From Cohnella thermotolerans DSM 17683 (GTDB lineage Bacteria; Bacillota; Bacilli; Paenibacillales; Paenibacillaceae): DNA of 64,000 nucleotides. The notes below the pieces were generated by a model, which was not told where the DNA came from, did no database searches, and worked only from the letters and a program-made list of their open reading frames with translations. The DNA is taken from NCBI RefSeq assembly GCF_000429825.1, contig NZ_KE386956.1, forward strand, positions 71,899-135,898, read 5' to 3'. The translations under genes and the position numbers were made by a program. Positions 14,815 through 31,068 of the stretch are shown one piece after another (the stretch's first letter is position 1; each line of letters begins with the position of its first letter).

Positions 14815-16752
14815 ATGAGCGTTATTGCGGGGATCTATCGCAGCGAAGAAGCGCCGTTCGAGTCGGAAGAGCGCGACCCGCTCTTGCAGGCGATGGAGCG
14901 TTATCCGGGAAGCGGCACAGGGGAATGGGAAGCGAATGCCGTCTGGCTGGCTTGCCGTCATCAATGGATTGCGCCGGAATCCCCCGGCGAGCAGTTGCCG
15001 CGCTACGATGCGTCGCGGAGATTGGCCATAACGGCAGATGCCATTCTGGACAACCGGGAGGAGCTGTTCGAGAGGCTGGGCATTTCTCGGGACAGGCGAA
15101 GGACATTGTCCGACAGCGAGTTGATTTTGCTCGCCTACGAACGCTGGGGGGCGGAAGCGCCCTCGCATTTGAACGGCGACTTTGCCTTTGTGATCTGGGA
15201 CGCCGGGAGACGGCGGCTGTTCGGAGCCCGGGACCCGCTGGGCAATCGAACGCTATATTTCACCGCAAGCGGCGGACGCTTCGCTTTCTGCACCGCCATT
15301 CGTCCTCTATTGGCGCTTCCGGGCGTCTCGCCCAAACTGGATGAAGATTGGCTGTCGGAATATATGGCCATTCCGTCGATGCTTGATGCCGCGAGCGCAT
15401 GCTTAACCGTCTACGGAGCGATTCGCCAGCTCCCGCCGGCCCATCGGTTAACCCTTGCACTGCCTGGGCAGGCCGAATTGTCTTCTTACGGGTCGTTGGC
15501 GCCGACGGAAAGGCTGCGATTTCGGACGGATGCCGAATGCGTTGAGGCGTTCCGTGACGTGTTCCGCCGAGCGGTTCGGGCGAAAATCCGCACAGGCCGC
15601 GAGGTCGGCGCTTCGCTGAGCGGCGGCCTGGATTCGGGCGCGGTTGTCAGCTATGCCGCCAAAGCGCTGGAGGAAGAAGGCAAGATTCTCCATACATACA
15701 GTTGCGTACCTCCGAACGATTTTGTCGACTGGACCTCCTCGGGGTGCGTGGCGAACGAACGGCCGTTCATTGAAGCGACCGTTCGCCACATCGGCCATTT
15801 GGATGCTCACATTCTCGATTTGCCGGACTGCAATCCGTTCACGGAGATCGACGAGCTGCTGGATATTCGGGAGATGCCGTACAAGGCGTTCGAGAACGCC
15901 TTCTGGATCAAAGCTCTGTACGCTCAAGCCGAGCGGCAGGGGGTCGGCGTCCTGCTGACCGGTGCGCAAGGCAATCATACGATTTCCTGGGGACCGGCCA
16001 TCGATTACTATGCCCGGCTTCTGAAGCGGCTCCGCTGGCTCAAGCTGTATCGCGAGCTTCGGCTTTACAGCCGAAGGATGCGTGTCGGCCGCTCCCGGCT
16101 GCTTCCCGTGCTCGGGAAGGAAGCGGCAGCTTCGCTGGTTCCCCTCTCGTTTCCCCCGTCCGAACCGGCCTTCCCGTCCATGATTCATCCCGATTTTGCA
16201 GCCAGAACGAAGGTGTACGACCGGATCAAGCATGAGGATGTCGGGCTGGAGCAGGGCAGAGAAAATCCTTGGCGGTTGAGGGAGCGGCATTTCGATAGCG
16301 CTTCGATCGGCAATCTGATCGGGACGAGCGGTGCGAAGTTCTCCATAAATTTCGGACTTTGGGAACGCGATCCGACGGCCGACCACCGGGTCATCCGATT
16401 CTGTCTCGCCCTTCCGACGGAGCAGTACGTTCGCGAAGGGATGGATCGGGCGTTGGTGCGGCGCGCTACCGAAGGAGTGTTGCCGGATCATGTCCGGCTG
16501 AACCAGCGGCTGCGGGGCGTTCAAGGAGTGGATTGGGTGCATCGGATGCGCGGGCATTGGCCTGCCTTCCTCCTTGAGCTTCGGCTCATGTGCAAGGACT
16601 CGCTGGTTGCGGGCATTCTCAACGTCCCGCAAGCGGCCGCTTCGCTCGCCCGGATCGGAGACAGCCCTCGTCCGGAGCTTGCGATGGACGACGACGCGCG
16701 ATTTCTGATGCGTTGCCTGATCGTATACCGGTTTTTAAAGCGAGTGTCCTGA
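14815..16752 (+). CDS. Lasso peptide cyclase (asparagine synthetase B homologue, C protein)
   Basis: A 645-residue asparagine-synthetase-like protein that activates the ring acid side chain as an AMP ester and forms the macrolactam of the lasso peptide. The glutamine-hydrolase-like N-domain begins MSVIAGIYRS, so the nucleophilic Cys2 of true amidotransferases is absent, as in lasso cyclases. The ATP-binding motif SGGLDS is at 269-274. The rest follows the asparagine synthase fold (NHTISWGP near 385 and FSINFGLWERDPTADH near 510). It is the first gene of the operon, upstream of the precursor gene; in many clusters it lies downstream. The ATG is preceded by GGAGGAG. Confidence 0.88.
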   Translation: MSVIAGIYRSEEAPFESEERDPLLQAMERYPGSGTGEWEANAVWLACRHQWIAPESPGEQLPRYDASRRLAITADAILDNREELFERLGISRDRRRTLSDSELILLAYERWGAEAPSHLNGDFAFVIWDAGRRRLFGARDPLGNRTLYFTASGGRFAFCTAIRPLLALPGVSPKLDEDWLSEYMAIPSMLDAASACLTVYGAIRQLPPAHRLTLALPGQAELSSYGSLAPTERLRFRTDAECVEAFRDVFRRAVRAKIRTGREVGASLSGGLDSGAVVSYAAKALEEEGKILHTYSCVPPNDFVDWTSSGCVANERPFIEATVRHIGHLDAHILDLPDCNPFTEIDELLDIREMPYKAFENAFWIKALYAQAERQGVGVLLTGAQGNHTISWGPAIDYYARLLKRLRWLKLYRELRLYSRRMRVGRSRLLPVLGKEAAASLVPLSFPPSEPAFPSMIHPDFAARTKVYDRIKHEDVGLEQGRENPWRLRERHFDSASIGNLIGTSGAKFSINFGLWERDPTADHRVIRFCLALPTEQYVREGMDRALVRRATEGVLPDHVRLNQRLRGVQGVDWVHRMRGHWPAFLLELRLMCKDSLVAGILNVPQAAASLARIGDSPRPELAMDDDARFLMRCLIVYRFLKRVS

Positions 16753-16881
16753 ACCGGAAACTTCGGGAAAGACGCCCTAAGTCAATATGATTGTTGAAAA
16801 TCTTTTGTGGAAAAGACAACACGAAATCAAGGGGTGCAAGAAGTCGGTTTTCACACTCCCTCTTCATTCGGTCCAGATTGT

Positions 16882-17151
16882 ACCGATTTCCATTTGATCC
16901 CGTCAAGGATACAGGTTTTCGGCCCTCGCCGACGCTCGTCCTTGAAGGGATGAAACGGAAATCGGTGCCTGGTCATAAGGATGAAGAGACGTTCAGGTCA
17001 AGCTGCATTTCGCAGCTTAGCCTGAAGGAAGATTGCCGGGTCATAGCAAGTACGCTTTCGCCACATGGCAACCCTTGGTCTTTCCAAGCAATGATGGTTC
17101 ATCTCGCTAGGAGGTGAGGAATCTCCCCGAAAAACATGACTTCCCCTTATG
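16882..17151 (+). other. Strongly structured intergenic RNA region before the lasso precursor gene
   Basis: The 458 bp between cyclase and precursor genes hold no convincing ORF but many inverted repeats. ACCGATTTCC (16882-16891) pairs with GGAAATCGGT (16957-16966). Nested inside, ATCCC-g-TCAAGGA (16897-16909) pairs with TCCTTGA-a-GGGAT (16939-16951). A second hairpin pairs TTCAGG-tc-AAGCTGC with GCAGCTT-ag-CCTGAA (16992-17026). CATAAGG (16974-16980) can pair with CCTTATG (17145-17151), closing the second half into a domain. I recognise no known riboswitch. It may be a leader, an RNA-processing site or an independent small RNA. Confidence 0.5.
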
Positions 17152-17210
17152 GTAGCCGAGGCTTTATGCCTTGTCTATAAACCATATTAATCTACGAGGA
17201 GGTGAACACG

Positions 17211-17375
17211 ATGAAAAAAGCATGGAGAGCTCCCGAACTGGAAACGCTCGACATCAGCATGACGATGGCCGGAACCGGTACGAAATACGTGGACTGGTCT
17301 TATGTCGGCGGCAAGCACTTGGAGACGAACGACGATCCGAAGTGGAGCGATTACCCGGCTCCGCCTGAGTCTTAA
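17211..17375 (+). CDS. Lasso peptide precursor, paeninodin type (A protein)
   Basis: A 54-residue precursor. Residues 1-19 are the leader; W5-x2-P8-E-L fits the YxxP-type motif bound by the RRE protein, and T18 is the conserved threonine at position -2 from the cut. The core is residues 20-54, starting AGTGTKYVD, so an Ala1 to Asp9 nine-residue macrolactam is predicted, exactly the ring plan of paeninodin (AGPGTSTPD). The tail holds a GGKHLE segment and ends PAPPES. The C-terminal serine is the expected target of the kinase gene that follows. A 35-residue core is long for the class. The ribosome site is AGGAGGTG at ideal spacing. Confidence 0.88.
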   Translation: MKKAWRAPELETLDISMTMAGTGTKYVDWSYVGGKHLETNDDPKWSDYPAPPES

Positions 17376-17397
17376 TTTACTTACGGTTAATGATGTT

Positions 17398-17444
17398 CTG
17401 CCGCTTCGGCCGGCGCCCTTATCCGAAGCGGCAGATAAGGGCGC
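17398..17444 (+). repeat. Interleaved double inverted repeat (bistable hairpin) between precursor and kinase genes
   Basis: Four adjacent segments read A-B-A'-B'. A is CTGCCGCTTCGG (17398-17409), B is GCGCCCTTAT (17413-17422), A' is CCGAAGCGGCAG (17423-17434) and B' is ATAAGGGCGC (17435-17444). A pairs perfectly with A' (12 bp) and B perfectly with B' (10 bp). With no spare nucleotides between segments the two hairpins should exclude each other. No T-tract follows, so it is not an ordinary terminator. Position just after the precursor stop suggests control of precursor-to-enzyme ratio. Confidence 0.7.
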
Positions 17445-17488
17445 TCCGGTAAGCGTTCGGAATCCTTTAGGAATGTGAAGGTGAAGAG

Positions 17489-18430
17489 ATGGCAGCGATC
17501 GCGCAACAAACGTCGTACCAAGCGTTCGGCTTGCAGCTGCGGAGCGATCTGCCGCTGCCCGAGTTGCTGCCGTCGGGACGGCGGGAGCTTCAGCCGGATG
17601 TCGTCATTACGGTCGGCGACCTCGTTCAGGAATGGGAGAGCGGCACATCCGATTTTACTTATTTCCGGGTACGCGGCGATCGAATCTGGTTCGCCGTTCC
17701 CCAAATCGCGATCTACCGGATCTCGGAAGGCAGGGAGATCGTCGTCAGCCCGTTGGACGGCGCCGACGAGCGCATGATTCGCCTCTACCTGCTAGGTTCT
17801 TGCATGGGAGCCTTGCTCATGCAGCGCGGCATTCTTCCGCTGCACGGCAGCGCTGTCGTCGTAGACGGCAGAGCCTATGCCTTCGTCGGGGAATCGGGCG
17901 CCGGGAAGTCGACGATTGCCGCCGCCTTTGCGAAGCAAGGCTTTGCCTTGCTCAGCGACGATGTCATCGCGCTCTCGTTCGGGGATCCGGGAGACGGGAC
18001 TCGGTTGCCGACGGTCACGCCGTCTTATCCGCAGCAGAAGCTGTGGCAAGAGAGTCTGGAGCAGTTGGGAATGGAGAGCGGCTTGTTCGCGCCATTAGGC
18101 TGCGAGACGACGAAATTTGCCGTTCCCGTGCCCGCTGCTTATTATCGCGATCAGGTTCCGCTAAGCGGCATCTTCGAGCTTCTTCCCTTCGAAAAGGCTA
18201 GCCAGGTCGAGATTCGAAAGCTGACTCCCTTCGAAGGCCTGCCTCTGATCGGACAGCACACCTACCGGCAATTCCTCATTCCCCAGCTAGGTCTTCAGGA
18301 TTGGCATTTCAAACAATCGGCCATCTTGGCGGGCCGGACGGACCTTTTCCGCGTCCGCAGACCTTTGACCCCTTTCTCAGCCCACCATATGGTCGACCGC
18401 ATCATTCAAACCATTCGCGAAGGAGCCTAA
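17489..18430 (+). CDS. HPr-kinase-like lasso peptide kinase (K protein)
   Basis: A 313-residue protein related to the C-terminal domain of HPr kinase/phosphorylase. The P-loop is GESGAGKST at 134-142, preceded by LHGSAVVVDGRAYAFV and followed by the acidic LLSDDVIAL. In the paeninodin cluster a kinase of this type phosphorylates the C-terminal serine of the precursor, and the precursor here also ends in serine. The N-terminal 110 residues are the variable region seen in lasso kinases. The ATG follows GAAGGTGAAGAG. It lies 114 bp after the precursor gene, beyond the bistable hairpin, and 7 bp before the RRE gene. Confidence 0.87.
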   Translation: MAAIAQQTSYQAFGLQLRSDLPLPELLPSGRRELQPDVVITVGDLVQEWESGTSDFTYFRVRGDRIWFAVPQIAIYRISEGREIVVSPLDGADERMIRLYLLGSCMGALLMQRGILPLHGSAVVVDGRAYAFVGESGAGKSTIAAAFAKQGFALLSDDVIALSFGDPGDGTRLPTVTPSYPQQKLWQESLEQLGMESGLFAPLGCETTKFAVPVPAAYYRDQVPLSGIFELLPFEKASQVEIRKLTPFEGLPLIGQHTYRQFLIPQLGLQDWHFKQSAILAGRTDLFRVRRPLTPFSAHHMVDRIIQTIREGA

Positions 18431-18437
18431 TCGTCCG

Positions 18438-18740
18438 ATGAGTCATTCCCTCGAATTTCCGAATCGGTTGTTCACGCAGGCCGACGGCAATCTCGTCAGC
18501 GACATGAACGGCGAGAAAGTCATGCTGAGCATTCAGAGCGGCAAGTATTACAATCTCGGCGAAATTGGCGGCCGAATCTGGGAATTAATCGCTTCGCCGC
18601 TGTCCGTCGGGCAGATTACCGACATTCTCGTGAACGAATATGAAGTCGATCCGGCCGAATGCAGCCAAGAGGTAGAGCGGTTTATCCAAGCGTTGTCGAA
18701 GGAACAGCTCGTTCGGTCCATGGATGCGCTTCCCGAGTAA
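18438..18740 (+). CDS. PqqD-like RRE protein of lasso biosynthesis (B1 protein)
   Basis: A 100-residue PqqD-fold protein, the RiPP recognition element that binds the leader peptide and hands the precursor to the peptidase and cyclase. Typical features are the start-proximal hydrophobic strand, VMLSIQSGKYYNLGEIGGRI near 30-49 and IWELIASPLSVGQITDIL. The C-terminal helix contains ECSQEVERFIQAL. It starts 7 bp after the kinase gene and is followed by the separate leader-peptidase gene, so B1 and B2 are split as usual in Gram-positive clusters. Confidence 0.9.
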   Translation: MSHSLEFPNRLFTQADGNLVSDMNGEKVMLSIQSGKYYNLGEIGGRIWELIASPLSVGQITDILVNEYEVDPAECSQEVERFIQALSKEQLVRSMDALPE

Positions 18741-18757
18741 GGAAGGAGCGAAAGGCG

Positions 18758-19237
18758 TTGCGAAGGAAATGGCGTTCATTCGTTAAGATGCCGTTCGCTA
18801 TGAAGCTGATGCTTGCGGAGGCTTACGTCTTTCTCGGGTGGTCGCGTATTTTGAAGCTGTTCCCGTTCTCGAAGGTGGCGCCGAACCTGGGCGTGCAGAT
18901 GGCGGAGACGTCCTGGTCGCATCCCGGAGAGGATGAGCGAATGATCCGGCGAGTGGCGAGGGCGGTCCGGACGATGAGCCGCTATACGTGGTGGGAGAGC
19001 AAATGTCTGGTGAGGGCGATCGCCGCGATGAAGATGCTCCGCCGCCGCGGCATCGACAGCACGCTCTATCTCGGAACGGCGAAGGATAAGTCCGGGCAGT
19101 TGGTCGCGCACGCTTGGCTTCGCAGCGGACCTTATTATTTGACGGGCGCGGAAGAGATGGAGCAGTTCACGGTCGTAGGAAAGTTCGGTTACTTCGCCCC
19201 TGACCGGCGAGGCCAAAGGAGACATCGGCATGGATGA
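18758..19237 (+). CDS. Lasso leader peptidase, transglutaminase-like (B2 protein)
   Basis: A 159-residue cysteine protease of the lasso B2 (transglutaminase-core) family that removes the leader before ring closure. The catalytic cysteine is C83 in WWESKCLVRAIAAMKMLRRR and the histidine is H118 in VAHAWLRSG. The start is TTG at 18758 with AAGGAG ten bases upstream; no ATG lies in a better position. The 3' end overlaps the nucleotidyltransferase gene by 8 bp. The fold, size and neighbours all agree. Confidence 0.88.
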   Translation: MRRKWRSFVKMPFAMKLMLAEAYVFLGWSRILKLFPFSKVAPNLGVQMAETSWSHPGEDERMIRRVARAVRTMSRYTWWESKCLVRAIAAMKMLRRRGIDSTLYLGTAKDKSGQLVAHAWLRSGPYYLTGAEEMEQFTVVGKFGYFAPDRRGQRRHRHG

Positions 19238-20423
19238 CGCGCTGGAACGAACCGTTCGATCATTGCCGCGGGAGTTGAAGGCATTGCTGCCTTGCCTGCG
19301 AATGCAGCAGGGGAAGCCGGCTTGGCGGGAACTTCCCGATTGGGAAGCGATCGATCGCGAACAACTGCTTCGGCTGGTTAAGCATCACCGCGTCTATCCG
19401 CTCGTGATGGAAAGTTGGCGCTCCGAAGGGGACTCGAGTGCCGTCCTGCAGGAACTGCGCGCCTTGCGCAACCGGAACTCGTTGCATATGCTTCAACTCG
19501 CGGCCGAGATGACCGAGGTCGTCCGACTTCTGGCGGAACGGGGCGTTCCTGCGTTGGTATTGAAAGGCCCGGTTCTCGCTAAGAAGCTGTACGGCGACCT
19601 GTCGCTTCGGACGTCCAAGGATTTGGATTTGCTCGTCCCTCCCGGCCGAATCGGGGAAGCGGAGTCCGTCTTGCAAAGCCGCGGCTACCGGGAAGATGGC
19701 GCCATCCCTCGGGTGTTGAACGACTGGATGCGGAAAACGCATCATGCTTCCTACAAGCTTCCCGCAACCGGCATTCAGATCGAATTGCACTGGCGGATGA
19801 ATCCCGACACGGCGAACGAGCCGGATTTCGAAGCGCTGTGGGCGCGGCGGCAGGAAGCGGACTTTTCCGGCCGGACGGTTGCCATGCTGGGCCCGGAGGA
19901 TCTGTTCGTCTATCTCGTCTCGCATGGCGCAAGACATGGGTGGTTTCGTCTTCGCTGGCTTGCGGATATCGACAGGATGCTGCGGAGCCCGCTGCGATGG
20001 ACGCTGCTGCGGACGCTTCTGGAGCAGAACGAGTGCCGGCACTTGGCGGGTCAAGCGGCGATCCTGTGCGAAGCGCTGCTCCAAACTCCCGTGCCCGAAG
20101 CAATGCGTCCGTATATGGCCAAACGAAGGGCGCTCCGTCTGGCCAAGGGAGCCGTAAAGATCATACGCGATCTTGTTCAAATGACGCCGAAGCCGAACAG
20201 CAAAGATGTGAACAAATATTATCGGCGCTACGTGTTCTCCATCCGATCGCTGCGTCAGAAGCGGGCCTATCTGATAAGCAAGCTGTACCCCAGCTCCTGG
20301 GATGCCCGGCTCCTCCCGCTGCCCGCGCCATTGCGATTTCTTTATTTTCCCCTGAGACCCTTCCTGTGGTTCTGGAGACGGATGCGGAACGAGGCGTCCT
20401 GGAAGACGGAGGACTTAAGATGA
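19230..20423 (+). CDS. Nucleotidyltransferase-family lasso cluster protein (N protein)
   Basis: A 397-residue protein of the NTP_transf_5 type. ALVLKGPVLAKKLYGDLSLR followed by SKDLDLLV (near 110-137) gives the family's acidic D-x-D metal-binding pair. Such a gene also occurs in paeninodin-type clusters; its reaction has not been settled to my knowledge, but it could add a nucleotide or further modify the phosphate placed by the kinase. It overlaps the B2 gene by 8 bp and the exporter gene by 4 bp, so it is translated as part of the same unit. Confidence 0.75.
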   Translation: MDDALERTVRSLPRELKALLPCLRMQQGKPAWRELPDWEAIDREQLLRLVKHHRVYPLVMESWRSEGDSSAVLQELRALRNRNSLHMLQLAAEMTEVVRLLAERGVPALVLKGPVLAKKLYGDLSLRTSKDLDLLVPPGRIGEAESVLQSRGYREDGAIPRVLNDWMRKTHHASYKLPATGIQIELHWRMNPDTANEPDFEALWARRQEADFSGRTVAMLGPEDLFVYLVSHGARHGWFRLRWLADIDRMLRSPLRWTLLRTLLEQNECRHLAGQAAILCEALLQTPVPEAMRPYMAKRRALRLAKGAVKIIRDLVQMTPKPNSKDVNKYYRRYVFSIRSLRQKRAYLISKLYPSSWDARLLPLPAPLRFLYFPLRPFLWFWRRMRNEASWKTEDLR

Positions 20424-22222
20424 AGGAACTTTTGCATTACTTTCGCAAATTTCATGCCTTCGCGGGTCGAAGGCTCTATATCAATCTGATCGGCATGGTG
20501 CTGATCAGCTTCATCGAGGGCGTCGGGATCTATTTGCTCGTTCCGATGCTTAGCCTTATGGGCTCCTTCCATCTTAATCTCGGAAGCATCCCCTATATCG
20601 ACCGTTTAATGGGACCGATTGAGAGCATCCCCGAACAGGCGCGCCTGCCTCTGATTTTGCTCGTCTATGTCGTCCTGATTATTGGCCAGGCGTTGCTGCA
20701 GCGCATGCTGCAATTGCAGAACAGCCGAATGAACCAGGGGTTCATTCAGCTCCTGAGATTGGATATTTATCAGCGTCTGCTTGCTTCCGGATGGCACTTC
20801 TTCGTGAGAAAGCGGAAATCTGATTTCTATCATATGCTGACGACCGAATTGGGAAGAGTTGCGAGCGGCACCGTGCAAGCGATGACGTTCCTGACTTCCG
20901 CCGTGTTCACGGCCATCCAGATCGGTCTCGCCTTCCTGCTCTCCGCCAAGCTCACCCTGCTGGTCATCGCCTGCGGCGTCGGCTTCGTCCTGTTCTCCCG
21001 GCGCTTCGTTCGCAGCGCCAAACGGTTGGGCGGACGGATGAGCGAGCTGTCTCAAGGCTACTTCGCCGCAGTCAACGACAGCTTCAGCGGCATTAAGGAT
21101 ATTAAGAGCAACCGGCTGGAGTCGACGCAATTGCAATGGTTCCAGGATTTGAACCGGCAAATGGAAGAGAATGCGAACCAGTTCGTGCGCAATCAGTCGA
21201 TGAGCCAATTCGTCTACAAGACGGCGTCGGCGCTTCTGATCGTGCTGTTCGTCTTTGTCTCGTTCGAGCTGCTGCATGTCCAGACCGAGCAGCTCGTCAT
21301 GATTGTGCTGATTTTTACCCGTTTGTGGCCGCGATTTACTTCCCTGCAAAGCAGCGCGGAGCAGATGGTGTCCGCCGTTCCGGCTTATCGGGGCTTGCTC
21401 GAGCTGACGCGGGAGTGCACGGAAGCTCGCGAGGCCGAAGTGGAGCTCGCCCTGCGGGAGCCGAATCGGGAACCGCTGACCATTCGTCAATCCATCGTTT
21501 GCAGGGGGGTTGCCTTCCGCTACGATCCTCACTCTCCCACTTACGCGTTAAAGAATATTCACCTCGCCATTCCGGCCAATCGGACGACGGCGATCGTCGG
21601 CCGGTCCGGCGCGGGGAAGAGCACGTTGATCGATGTGCTGATCGGACTGTTCCAGCCGGAGGAAGGGGAGGTGTTGATCGACGGCGTTCCGTTGACAGGC
21701 GACAAGCTGTCCGCTTACCGGCGTTCGATCAGCTACGTCTCGCAAGACCCGTTTCTGTTCCATGCGAGCATTCGCAACAACCTGAAGATGGTGGCGCCGG
21801 ACGCGACGGAAGAGGAAATTTGGCAAGCGCTTACGTTCGCAGCGGCCAAGGACTTCGTAAGCAGACTCCCTCAAGGGATCGACACGGTGCTGGGCGACCG
21901 GGGCGTACGGCTCTCGGGCGGCGAGCGCCAGCGGATTGTGCTCGCTCGGGCGATTCTCCGCAAGCCGTCGATTCTCGTGCTGGACGAAGCGACCAGCGCG
22001 CTGGACAACGAGAACGAGGCGAAAATTCAAGAGGCGTTGGATCAGCTTAAGGGCAATCTCACCATCGTCATCATTGCCCATCGTTTATCCACCATTCGCA
22101 ACGCGGATCAGGTTGTCGTCATCGATCAAGGAACGGTCATCCAGCAAGGCGAATACCTCCAGCTGTCCAAAGAAGCGAAAGGGGTTTTCAGCCAACTGCT
22201 GGCTTATCAAGCGAAAGCGTAG
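20420..22222 (+). CDS. ABC transporter, lasso peptide exporter (D protein)
   Basis: A 600-residue half-transporter with permease and ATPase fused. About six membrane segments fill residues 20-310. The ATPase has Walker A GRSGAGKST at 394-402, LSGGERQRIVLARAILRK at about 498-515, the Walker B ILVLDEATSALD and the H-loop IIAHRLST. It would pump the mature lasso peptide out and may give self-protection. The ATG overlaps the previous stop (ATGA). No peptidase C39 domain is present, consistent with leader removal by the B2 protein. Confidence 0.85.
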   Translation: MKELLHYFRKFHAFAGRRLYINLIGMVLISFIEGVGIYLLVPMLSLMGSFHLNLGSIPYIDRLMGPIESIPEQARLPLILLVYVVLIIGQALLQRMLQLQNSRMNQGFIQLLRLDIYQRLLASGWHFFVRKRKSDFYHMLTTELGRVASGTVQAMTFLTSAVFTAIQIGLAFLLSAKLTLLVIACGVGFVLFSRRFVRSAKRLGGRMSELSQGYFAAVNDSFSGIKDIKSNRLESTQLQWFQDLNRQMEENANQFVRNQSMSQFVYKTASALLIVLFVFVSFELLHVQTEQLVMIVLIFTRLWPRFTSLQSSAEQMVSAVPAYRGLLELTRECTEAREAEVELALREPNREPLTIRQSIVCRGVAFRYDPHSPTYALKNIHLAIPANRTTAIVGRSGAGKSTLIDVLIGLFQPEEGEVLIDGVPLTGDKLSAYRRSISYVSQDPFLFHASIRNNLKMVAPDATEEEIWQALTFAAAKDFVSRLPQGIDTVLGDRGVRLSGGERQRIVLARAILRKPSILVLDEATSALDNENEAKIQEALDQLKGNLTIVIIAHRLSTIRNADQVVVIDQGTVIQQGEYLQLSKEAKGVFSQLLAYQAKA

Positions 22223-30924: not shown

Positions 30925-30944
30925 TGAAGATTCCTCCCTTTGTC

Positions 30945-31058
30945 TGGCCTGCGAGGTTAGCTGACGGGTTCGGGTCAAAGAGTACCCCTGGCGCTTGCAG
31001 AGCGCCTTCACCCCACGAACTTGGTTCCCCCGCGCCCATATTCGGGCTTCGGCCTTGG
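30945..31058 (-). ncRNA. ydaO/yuaA-type c-di-AMP riboswitch
   Basis: The minus strand carries the conserved blocks of the family in order: GGGGGAACCAA (near 31021-31031), GGGGTGAA (31007-31014), GGTACTC (near 30980-30986), then GACCCGAACCCGTCAGCTAA and CCTCGCAGGC (30976-30947). The element ends a few bases before the ribosome site AGGGAGG of the CAP gene and no terminator lies between, so control of translation start is more likely than of termination. High c-di-AMP normally turns this class off, linking the secreted protein to osmotic and wall status. Confidence 0.93.
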
Positions 31059-31068
31059 AATACTTCAC

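Follow-up and report, generated by a model that had tools for sequence, protein, structure and literature searches.

A probable paeninodin-type lasso peptide cluster with a long core in Cohnella thermotolerans, and a putative leader motif before its precursor gene

The core of the lasso peptide paeninodin has 23 residues, and its ring joins Ala1 to Asp9. In the accessible parts of two papers (PMC9266682, PMC8498205), the kinase PadeK acts on the linear precursor and phosphorylates its terminal Ser, homologous kinases attach up to four phosphates, and in pseudomycoidin one or two hexoses on the phosphorylated C-terminal Ser are linked with the nucleotidyltransferase PsmN, with a host glycosyltransferase acting after nucleotidylation not excluded. 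Phosphorylation and hexosylation by such enzymes are thus already published for paeninodin and pseudomycoidin, as far as those parts go, and so is the idea, for PsmN, that the nucleotidyltransferase decorates the phosphoserine. Few papers turned up when we searched the literature for long lasso tails and for the pairing of kinase and nucleotidyltransferase. Here, we analyze a window of 64,000 nucleotides (nt) of Cohnella thermotolerans DSM 17683, in which positions 14815-22222 hold an operon that we examined by Pfam and NCBIfam scans and by motif reading. We conclude, with a probability of about 0.87, that it is an apparently complete paeninodin-type lasso peptide cluster, with every chemical step taken from published relatives. 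The leader motif of 55 nt just before its precursor gene is more novel than the cluster itself, and its regulatory role is putative.

The operon consists of seven open genes, all on the + strand and in the order cyclase (C), precursor (A), HPrK-like kinase (K), RRE protein (B1), B2 peptidase, nucleotidyltransferase (N) and ATP-binding cassette (ABC) exporter (D), and these are real genes, not chance open reading frames (ORFs). Gene content and order, family membership, catalytic motifs and precursor anatomy can be read directly from the DNA, as can the persistence of the long-core form in other genomes. The first-pass annotation had described a complete one-strand paeninodin-type operon, and this is borne out by the models for A, B1, B2 and N, all of which score above their cut-offs (Table 1). 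Its paeninodin-type kinase is also there, with His119, P-loop Lys140 and Asp157-Asp158 equated by position with the published His-Lys-Asp-Asp set. No decay is visible on motif reading, and the catalytic motifs of the cyclase, kinase, B2, N and exporter are kept. In an alignment to 9x90, with residue numbers that we matched ourselves, B1 retains in KYYNLGEIGG the paeninodin-type Gly at the place where the RREs of linear polyphosphorylated peptide (LPP) clusters have Asn; the accessible part of PMC13381572 gives Gly as typical of paeninodin RREs and Asn for those of LPP clusters.

Table 1. Features of the operon and of the stretch before the precursor gene (positions in the window)
Feature	Position	Strand	Basis
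Lasso macrolactam cyclase (C), asparagine-synthetase-like, 645 aa	14815..16752	+	PF00733 91.7 bits, PF13537 81.5 bits; SGGLDS at residue 269
Extra ~430 nt between C and A	~16771-17203	+	gap comparison; second copy in own genome
126-nt segment, chiefly one long hairpin in predicted fold	16885..17010	+	not in the contig 5 copy
Putative leader motif: hairpin TAGYCGAGGc-loop-gCCTTGTCTATA then AGGAGG, just 5' of precursor ATG	17149..17203	+	shared with other loci; no credible Rfam match
Precursor (A), 54 aa	17211-17375	+	NF033524 56.1 bits over residues 2-30 (cut-off 27)
Precursor leader, 19 residues, WxxP (W -15, P -12), Thr -2	17211..17267	+	ORF and NF033524
Precursor core, 35 residues plus stop codon; predicted ring AGTGTKYVD 1-9, 26-residue loop plus tail, terminal Ser	17268..17375	+	ORF reading
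HPrK-like kinase (K), 313 aa, predicted target C-terminal Ser	17489..18430	+	LHG 118-120, P-loop GESGAGKST from 134, SDD 156-158
RRE / PqqD-like B1, 100 aa	18438..18740	+	NF033536 (lasso PqqD chaperone) 125.7 bits (cut-off 80); PDB 9x90 chain B, E 6.2e-26
B2 leader peptidase, transglutaminase-like, 159 aa, TTG start	18758..19237	+	PF13471 88.3 bits; NF033537 (lasso B2) 115.2 bits (cut-off 33); Cys83, His118
PF14907 nucleotidyltransferase (N), 397 aa	19230..20423	+	204.1 bits (cut-off 31.2); DLD at 131
ABC exporter (D), 600 aa	20420..22222	+	PF00005, PF00664; Walker A, LSGG, DEATS

The precursor reads MKKAWRAPELETLDISMTM for the leader and AGTGTKYVDWSYVGGKHLETNDDPKWSDYPAPPES for the core, and it is preceded by a strong ribosome site, GAGGAGGTGAACACGATG, with AGGAGG. 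Thr18 falls at position -2 and the core spans residues 20-54, starting with Ala1 and ending in Ser, so that the first-pass arithmetic (54 residues, a 35-residue core, a predicted Ala1-Asp9 macrolactam ring) is right, and the tail is indeed about 12 residues longer than paeninodin's, taking that core as 23 residues. The WxxP motif of the leader is a paeninodin-family feature in the accessible text of PMC13381572. Its closest relatives come from two Cohnella genomes, with cores of 34 and 36 residues and identities of 75-77% and 70%, and comparison of the cores, with nearest identities of 77% and 70%, agrees with the earlier proposal that the precursor is new. When the five long-core precursors are aligned, core positions 1, 2, 4, 9, 10, 13-15, 18, 22-24, 30 and 32 and the final Ser are invariant, and all five have in common the ring and an extended GG...DDP...P.P...S tail. 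No relative was found in the viral contigs scanned with the precursor, and the genome contigs scanned with the cyclase gave no match.

The paeninodin-family model NF033524 matches 241/394 genomes of the family and 20/37 of the genus, own genome included in both (E <= 0.01). We searched 174 loci with a pattern that calls for an aromatic residue at -15, for Pro at -12 and for Thr at -2, and obtained 118 distinct cores; because the pattern demands Thr at -2, its conservation is no result of this survey. The sample is also biased, as it is made up of the top matches of model or BLAST searches together with 20 stretches, each of 19 kb, and 60 selected places. Leaving out nine chance frames, and counting the G306 core (Met at -10) as genuine, left 109 cores, 98 of them with Asp or Glu at core positions 7-9. 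Among these 98 lasso-competent cores the ring acceptor is position 9 in 96, and 97 end in Ser, so a terminal serine is the rule, and the first-pass view of it as a special feature is not supported. The core length, also called unusual there, is uncommon but not unique: lengths range from 20 to 41 aa, with 77 cores of at most 28 residues, 21 of at least 31, and 11 longer than 35, which makes the long core a minority form. Cores of 31-41 residues thus recur in the paeninodin family, and those of 34-41 residues occur in several genera, many with the gene order of the window.

The other 11/109 cores have no Asp or Glu at positions 7-9. Examples are L126-L130, L131-L134 and L034, which combine a paeninodin leader (WxxP, Thr -2) with a C-terminal Ser (e.g., KFFPPVHPPGG...DLDS); for L131, L133 and L134 the match to the precursor model is weak. 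When the neighborhoods of six such genes (about 7 kb per side) were searched by tblastn with the window proteins, five (L295-L299) had no cyclase, kinase, B1, B2, N or exporter, and the sixth (L300, with the core of L169) had all of the window genes except N. We read these acceptor-less genes as coding for orphan, possibly linear substrates.

We compared gene order by tblastn over 20 loci of 19 kb. The order C-A-K-B1-B2-N-D was found in 11 of them (L095, L096, L098, L099, L101, L105, L106, L107, L109, L111 and L112), counting L105, where the stretch end cuts the cyclase, and L111, where the exporter matched in two pieces. One of these loci is a second lasso locus of the same genome, on contig 41 (L095:3032-13759), which has two cyclases, two kinases and two precursors, with cores YGKGMTNIDFVTTEDMDIYSPS and GGPNGIYPDKNGKGHNNGHPHAS, and one B1, B2, N and D in 19 kb.

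By analogy with published relatives, B1 would bind the WxxP leader, the kinase would phosphorylate the C-terminal Ser on the linear precursor, and B2 would cleave after Met19. The cyclase would then close the ring between the amine of Ala1 and the side chain of Asp9, encircling the tail, the nucleotidyltransferase may decorate the phosphate with one or more hexoses (or with a nucleotide), and the ABC protein would export a 35-residue lasso with a 9-membered ring and a long acidic/Pro-rich tail.

Several results weigh against this assignment. The top NCBIfam match of the cyclase, the lasso cyclase model NF033535, reaches 368 bits with a cut-off of 525, with the SGGxDS motif present; since all seven other cyclases scored against this model are also under the cut-off (326-382 bits, one of them from the genome's second locus), the low score appears to be a trait of the branch as sampled. 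The kinase is under the cut-off of Hpr_kinase_C (25.1 bits over residues 118-162, cut-off 33.3) and also under that of HprK_rel_A (NCBIfam). The canonical third catalytic residue of B2 is Asp, and it could not be located in the B2 sequence. Furthermore, 9/20 loci have another gene order or parts not found within the stretch; among the long-core loci, only cyclase, precursor and exporter were found in 19 kb at L100 and L103, and these plus the kinase at L097, where the other parts may act in trans or lie beyond the 19 kb. Finally, in the accessible part of PMC13381572, a paeninodin-type product of P. alginolyticus was undetected from the native host, and deletion of LppN in the LPP system was without effect, which calls for caution on the role of N.

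Between the cyclase stop and the precursor ATG lies a gap of 458 nt on which the first-pass annotation is silent. In 21 of 22 other cyclase-precursor pairs the gap measures 2-52 nt; the remaining pair (L114) gives 881 nt, probably an artefact because its cyclase was matched as three separate pieces. Contig 5 of the same genome carries another copy of the insert (C5:38891-39241; L185:5893-6240), which ends just before the ATG of a 95-aa ORF, lacks the 126-nt hairpin segment and contains 39 nt peculiar to it. A 38-nt piece of the insert's 5' end also lies on contig 1 (C1; L186:4580-4640) near a frame that looks transposase-like by eye, which hints at a mobile origin of the insert. The z score of fold stability is -7.3 for the whole gap, -1.4 for the contig 5 copy and -1.3 for the proximal 152 nt. 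This weakens the case for a single conserved structured RNA spanning all 458 nt, as most of the stability seems to come from the 126-nt hairpin that the contig 5 copy lacks.

We searched 36 further genomes of the genus and found no match to the insert. BLAST with the gap matched 7/392 genomes of the order, own included, through its 3' end, and 1/72,556 plasmid records, from Paenibacillus larvae, matches this end; the phage records gave no match to the gap and likewise no credible match to the motif. At gathering scores, Rfam gave nothing in the gap region, its sole match in the window being a cyclic di-AMP riboswitch elsewhere (RF00379, 103.6 bits, 30931-31064, - strand), and with the score threshold relaxed, the 801 nt surrounding the gap matched two eukaryotic families, far under their cut-offs.

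The 3' end of the insert is the 55-nt motif. Strong matches have in common the block TAG[CT]CGAGGc-loop-gCCTTGTCTATA, a spacer of about 14-19 nt and a Shine-Dalgarno (SD) sequence, usually with a start codon about 27-34 nt past CTAT. Across 14 motif instances, the downstream gene is a lasso precursor in three (the window, G306, G165), circular-bacteriocin-like in three (the P. larvae plasmid and two in G445), another ORF of 18-95 aa in five (C5, G074, G289, G310, G472) and a longer ORF in one (G297), and no ORF is evident at the SD in two (G459, G045). Two of the three circular-bacteriocin-like peptides score 14.1 and 18.9 bits against TIGR03651, under its cut-off of 30.7, and the third, with a TTG start, is a close look-alike by eye; the P. 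larvae gene has a SpoIIM-family gene and an ABC gene nearby. The strict motif pattern occurs in 4/296 genomes, this one among them, and the reversed control gave 0 among the matches listed. That the motif is generally tied to lasso precursors was rejected: matches of at least 16/20 occur upstream of only 3/123 distinct precursors, the rest reaching at most 14, with shuffled means of about 11-12. A literature text search on the motif letters gave nothing related among the titles listed, and our literature search turned up no conserved RNA or hairpin described upstream of lasso precursors.

A model, R1, was built from 9 motif sequences. Of 206 genomes, 37 had a match at E <= 1 and 7, own included, one of at least 30 bits, a score reached by 9 of the 42 rows. 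The motif was unconvincing in six weaker rows that we inspected (L272-L277), some of which precede ordinary genes. R1 recovers C5, G165, G045, G297 and G310, all outside its building set, although C5, G165 and G045 had been seen earlier. In a viral control of 31 loci with a short core-pattern match, 30 were at <=17.8 bits or unlisted and L219 scored 82.1 bits; over the stretch compared, L219 and the P. larvae plasmid have the same sequence.

Could the product be something other than the predicted lasso? Because LPP and paeninodin clusters have K, RRE, N and MsbA-like genes in common (accessible text of PMC13381572), the operon might make a linear phosphorylated, LPP-like ribosomally synthesized and post-translationally modified peptide, but this is highly improbable given the cyclase and B2, the WxxP rather than YxxP leader, the paeninodin Gly in the RRE, and the fact that none of the seven genes is signal-peptidase-like by Pfam/NCBIfam assignment. 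It is unlikely, too, that the tail is trimmed after export to leave a mature lasso of about paeninodin's size. The 35 residues do exceed the largest lassos named in the accessible text of PMC13352647, namely pandonodin (a disulfide-bearing class IV lasso of 33 aa overall, its 18-aa tail named the longest) and achromonodin-1 (30 aa); however, the C-terminal Ser, the presumed kinase target, and residues of the extended part are conserved in the long-core relatives, and this conservation suggests that the distal end is retained and has a use. A silent or decaying cluster, owing to the insert, would fit the exceptional length of the gap and the second, mobile-element-like copy, yet we regard it as quite improbable, since none of the seven reading frames is broken, the precursor retains its strong AGGAGG, and the insert's 3' end is the motif that stands just before other small-peptide genes, so that the insert may promote rather than block expression.

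For the motif, the choice is between an element of RNA and a site on DNA. We suggest tentatively, and with somewhat less than even confidence, that the insert carries a transferable, undescribed leader-RNA module that would set the expression of unrelated secreted-peptide classes in Paenibacillaceae and related families; more weakly, the 458 nt may give the precursor gene a leader element for itself, so that it would be controlled separately from the enzymes. That the motif is instead a DNA operator or an alternative-sigma promoter has a real chance of being right, if one short of even. In the 9-sequence alignment, seven of the nine pairs are invariant and pair counts are not above those of shuffles (62/500 reach them), and the spacing is nearly constant, all of which would suit a DNA site. 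When 13 sequences are aligned (G165 is off by one base), 99.1% of pair cells are paired versus 36-54% when the alignment is slid, and 2/9 pairs are changed on both sides, a number that 7/500 shuffles reach, but 2 double-changed pairs likewise turn up in two versions of the alignment shifted by one or two columns. The start codon about 27-34 nt past CTAT and the SD inside the conserved block would suit an mRNA leader rather than a DNA site. Taken together, there is modest support for the motif forming an RNA hairpin.

If made intact, the 35-residue product is predicted to exceed the 33 aa of pandonodin (as given in the accessible text of PMC13352647), and the cluster is a test case for whether a lasso whose loop and tail together have 26 residues can still offer its serine to K and N. 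Should the motif regulate, lasso peptides, circular bacteriocins and other secreted peptides would be under one control signal, which could also serve to find peptide genes missed by homology searches.

How does the locus compare with known systems? Like the window, paeninodin of Paenibacillus dendritiformis C454 has an NF033524 precursor, a split B1/B2, an HPrK-like kinase and a C-terminal Ser, whereas the 35-residue core, against 23 in paeninodin, and the extra 458 nt before the precursor are features of the window. Pseudomycoidin of Bacillus pseudomycoides DSM 12442 also has kinase and nucleotidyltransferase genes, and the likeness concerns the gene set; N is likened to PsmN by gene position and annotation only. 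The nearest cores, those of Cohnella faecalis, Cohnella sp. REN36, Paenibacillus sambharensis and P. tarimensis (34-40 residues; 77, 70, 63 and 55% identity), follow AGxGxxxxDWxxVGG...DDP...P.P...S, but these four long-core homologues (L096-L099) have a C-A gap of 26-45 nt and no insert, unlike the window. The operon is flanked by glycosyltransferase, GDP-mannose pyrophosphorylase-like (sugar-nucleotide), UDP-glucose dehydrogenase and VanZ genes and by a LytR-CpsA-Psr gene, and these polysaccharide-gene flanks resemble the neighborhoods in PMC13381572, whose accessible part finds paeninodin clusters frequent in capsular polysaccharide loci. According to the same text, LPP clusters, which share K, N, RRE, exporter and a capsule-locus neighborhood with the window, differ in their YxxP leader, their signal-peptidase-like protease and a core set with no cyclase. 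Pandonodin, in the accessible text of PMC13352647, is like the predicted product in its very long tail and unlike it in its disulfide, its class (IV), its 18-aa tail and its total of 33 aa.

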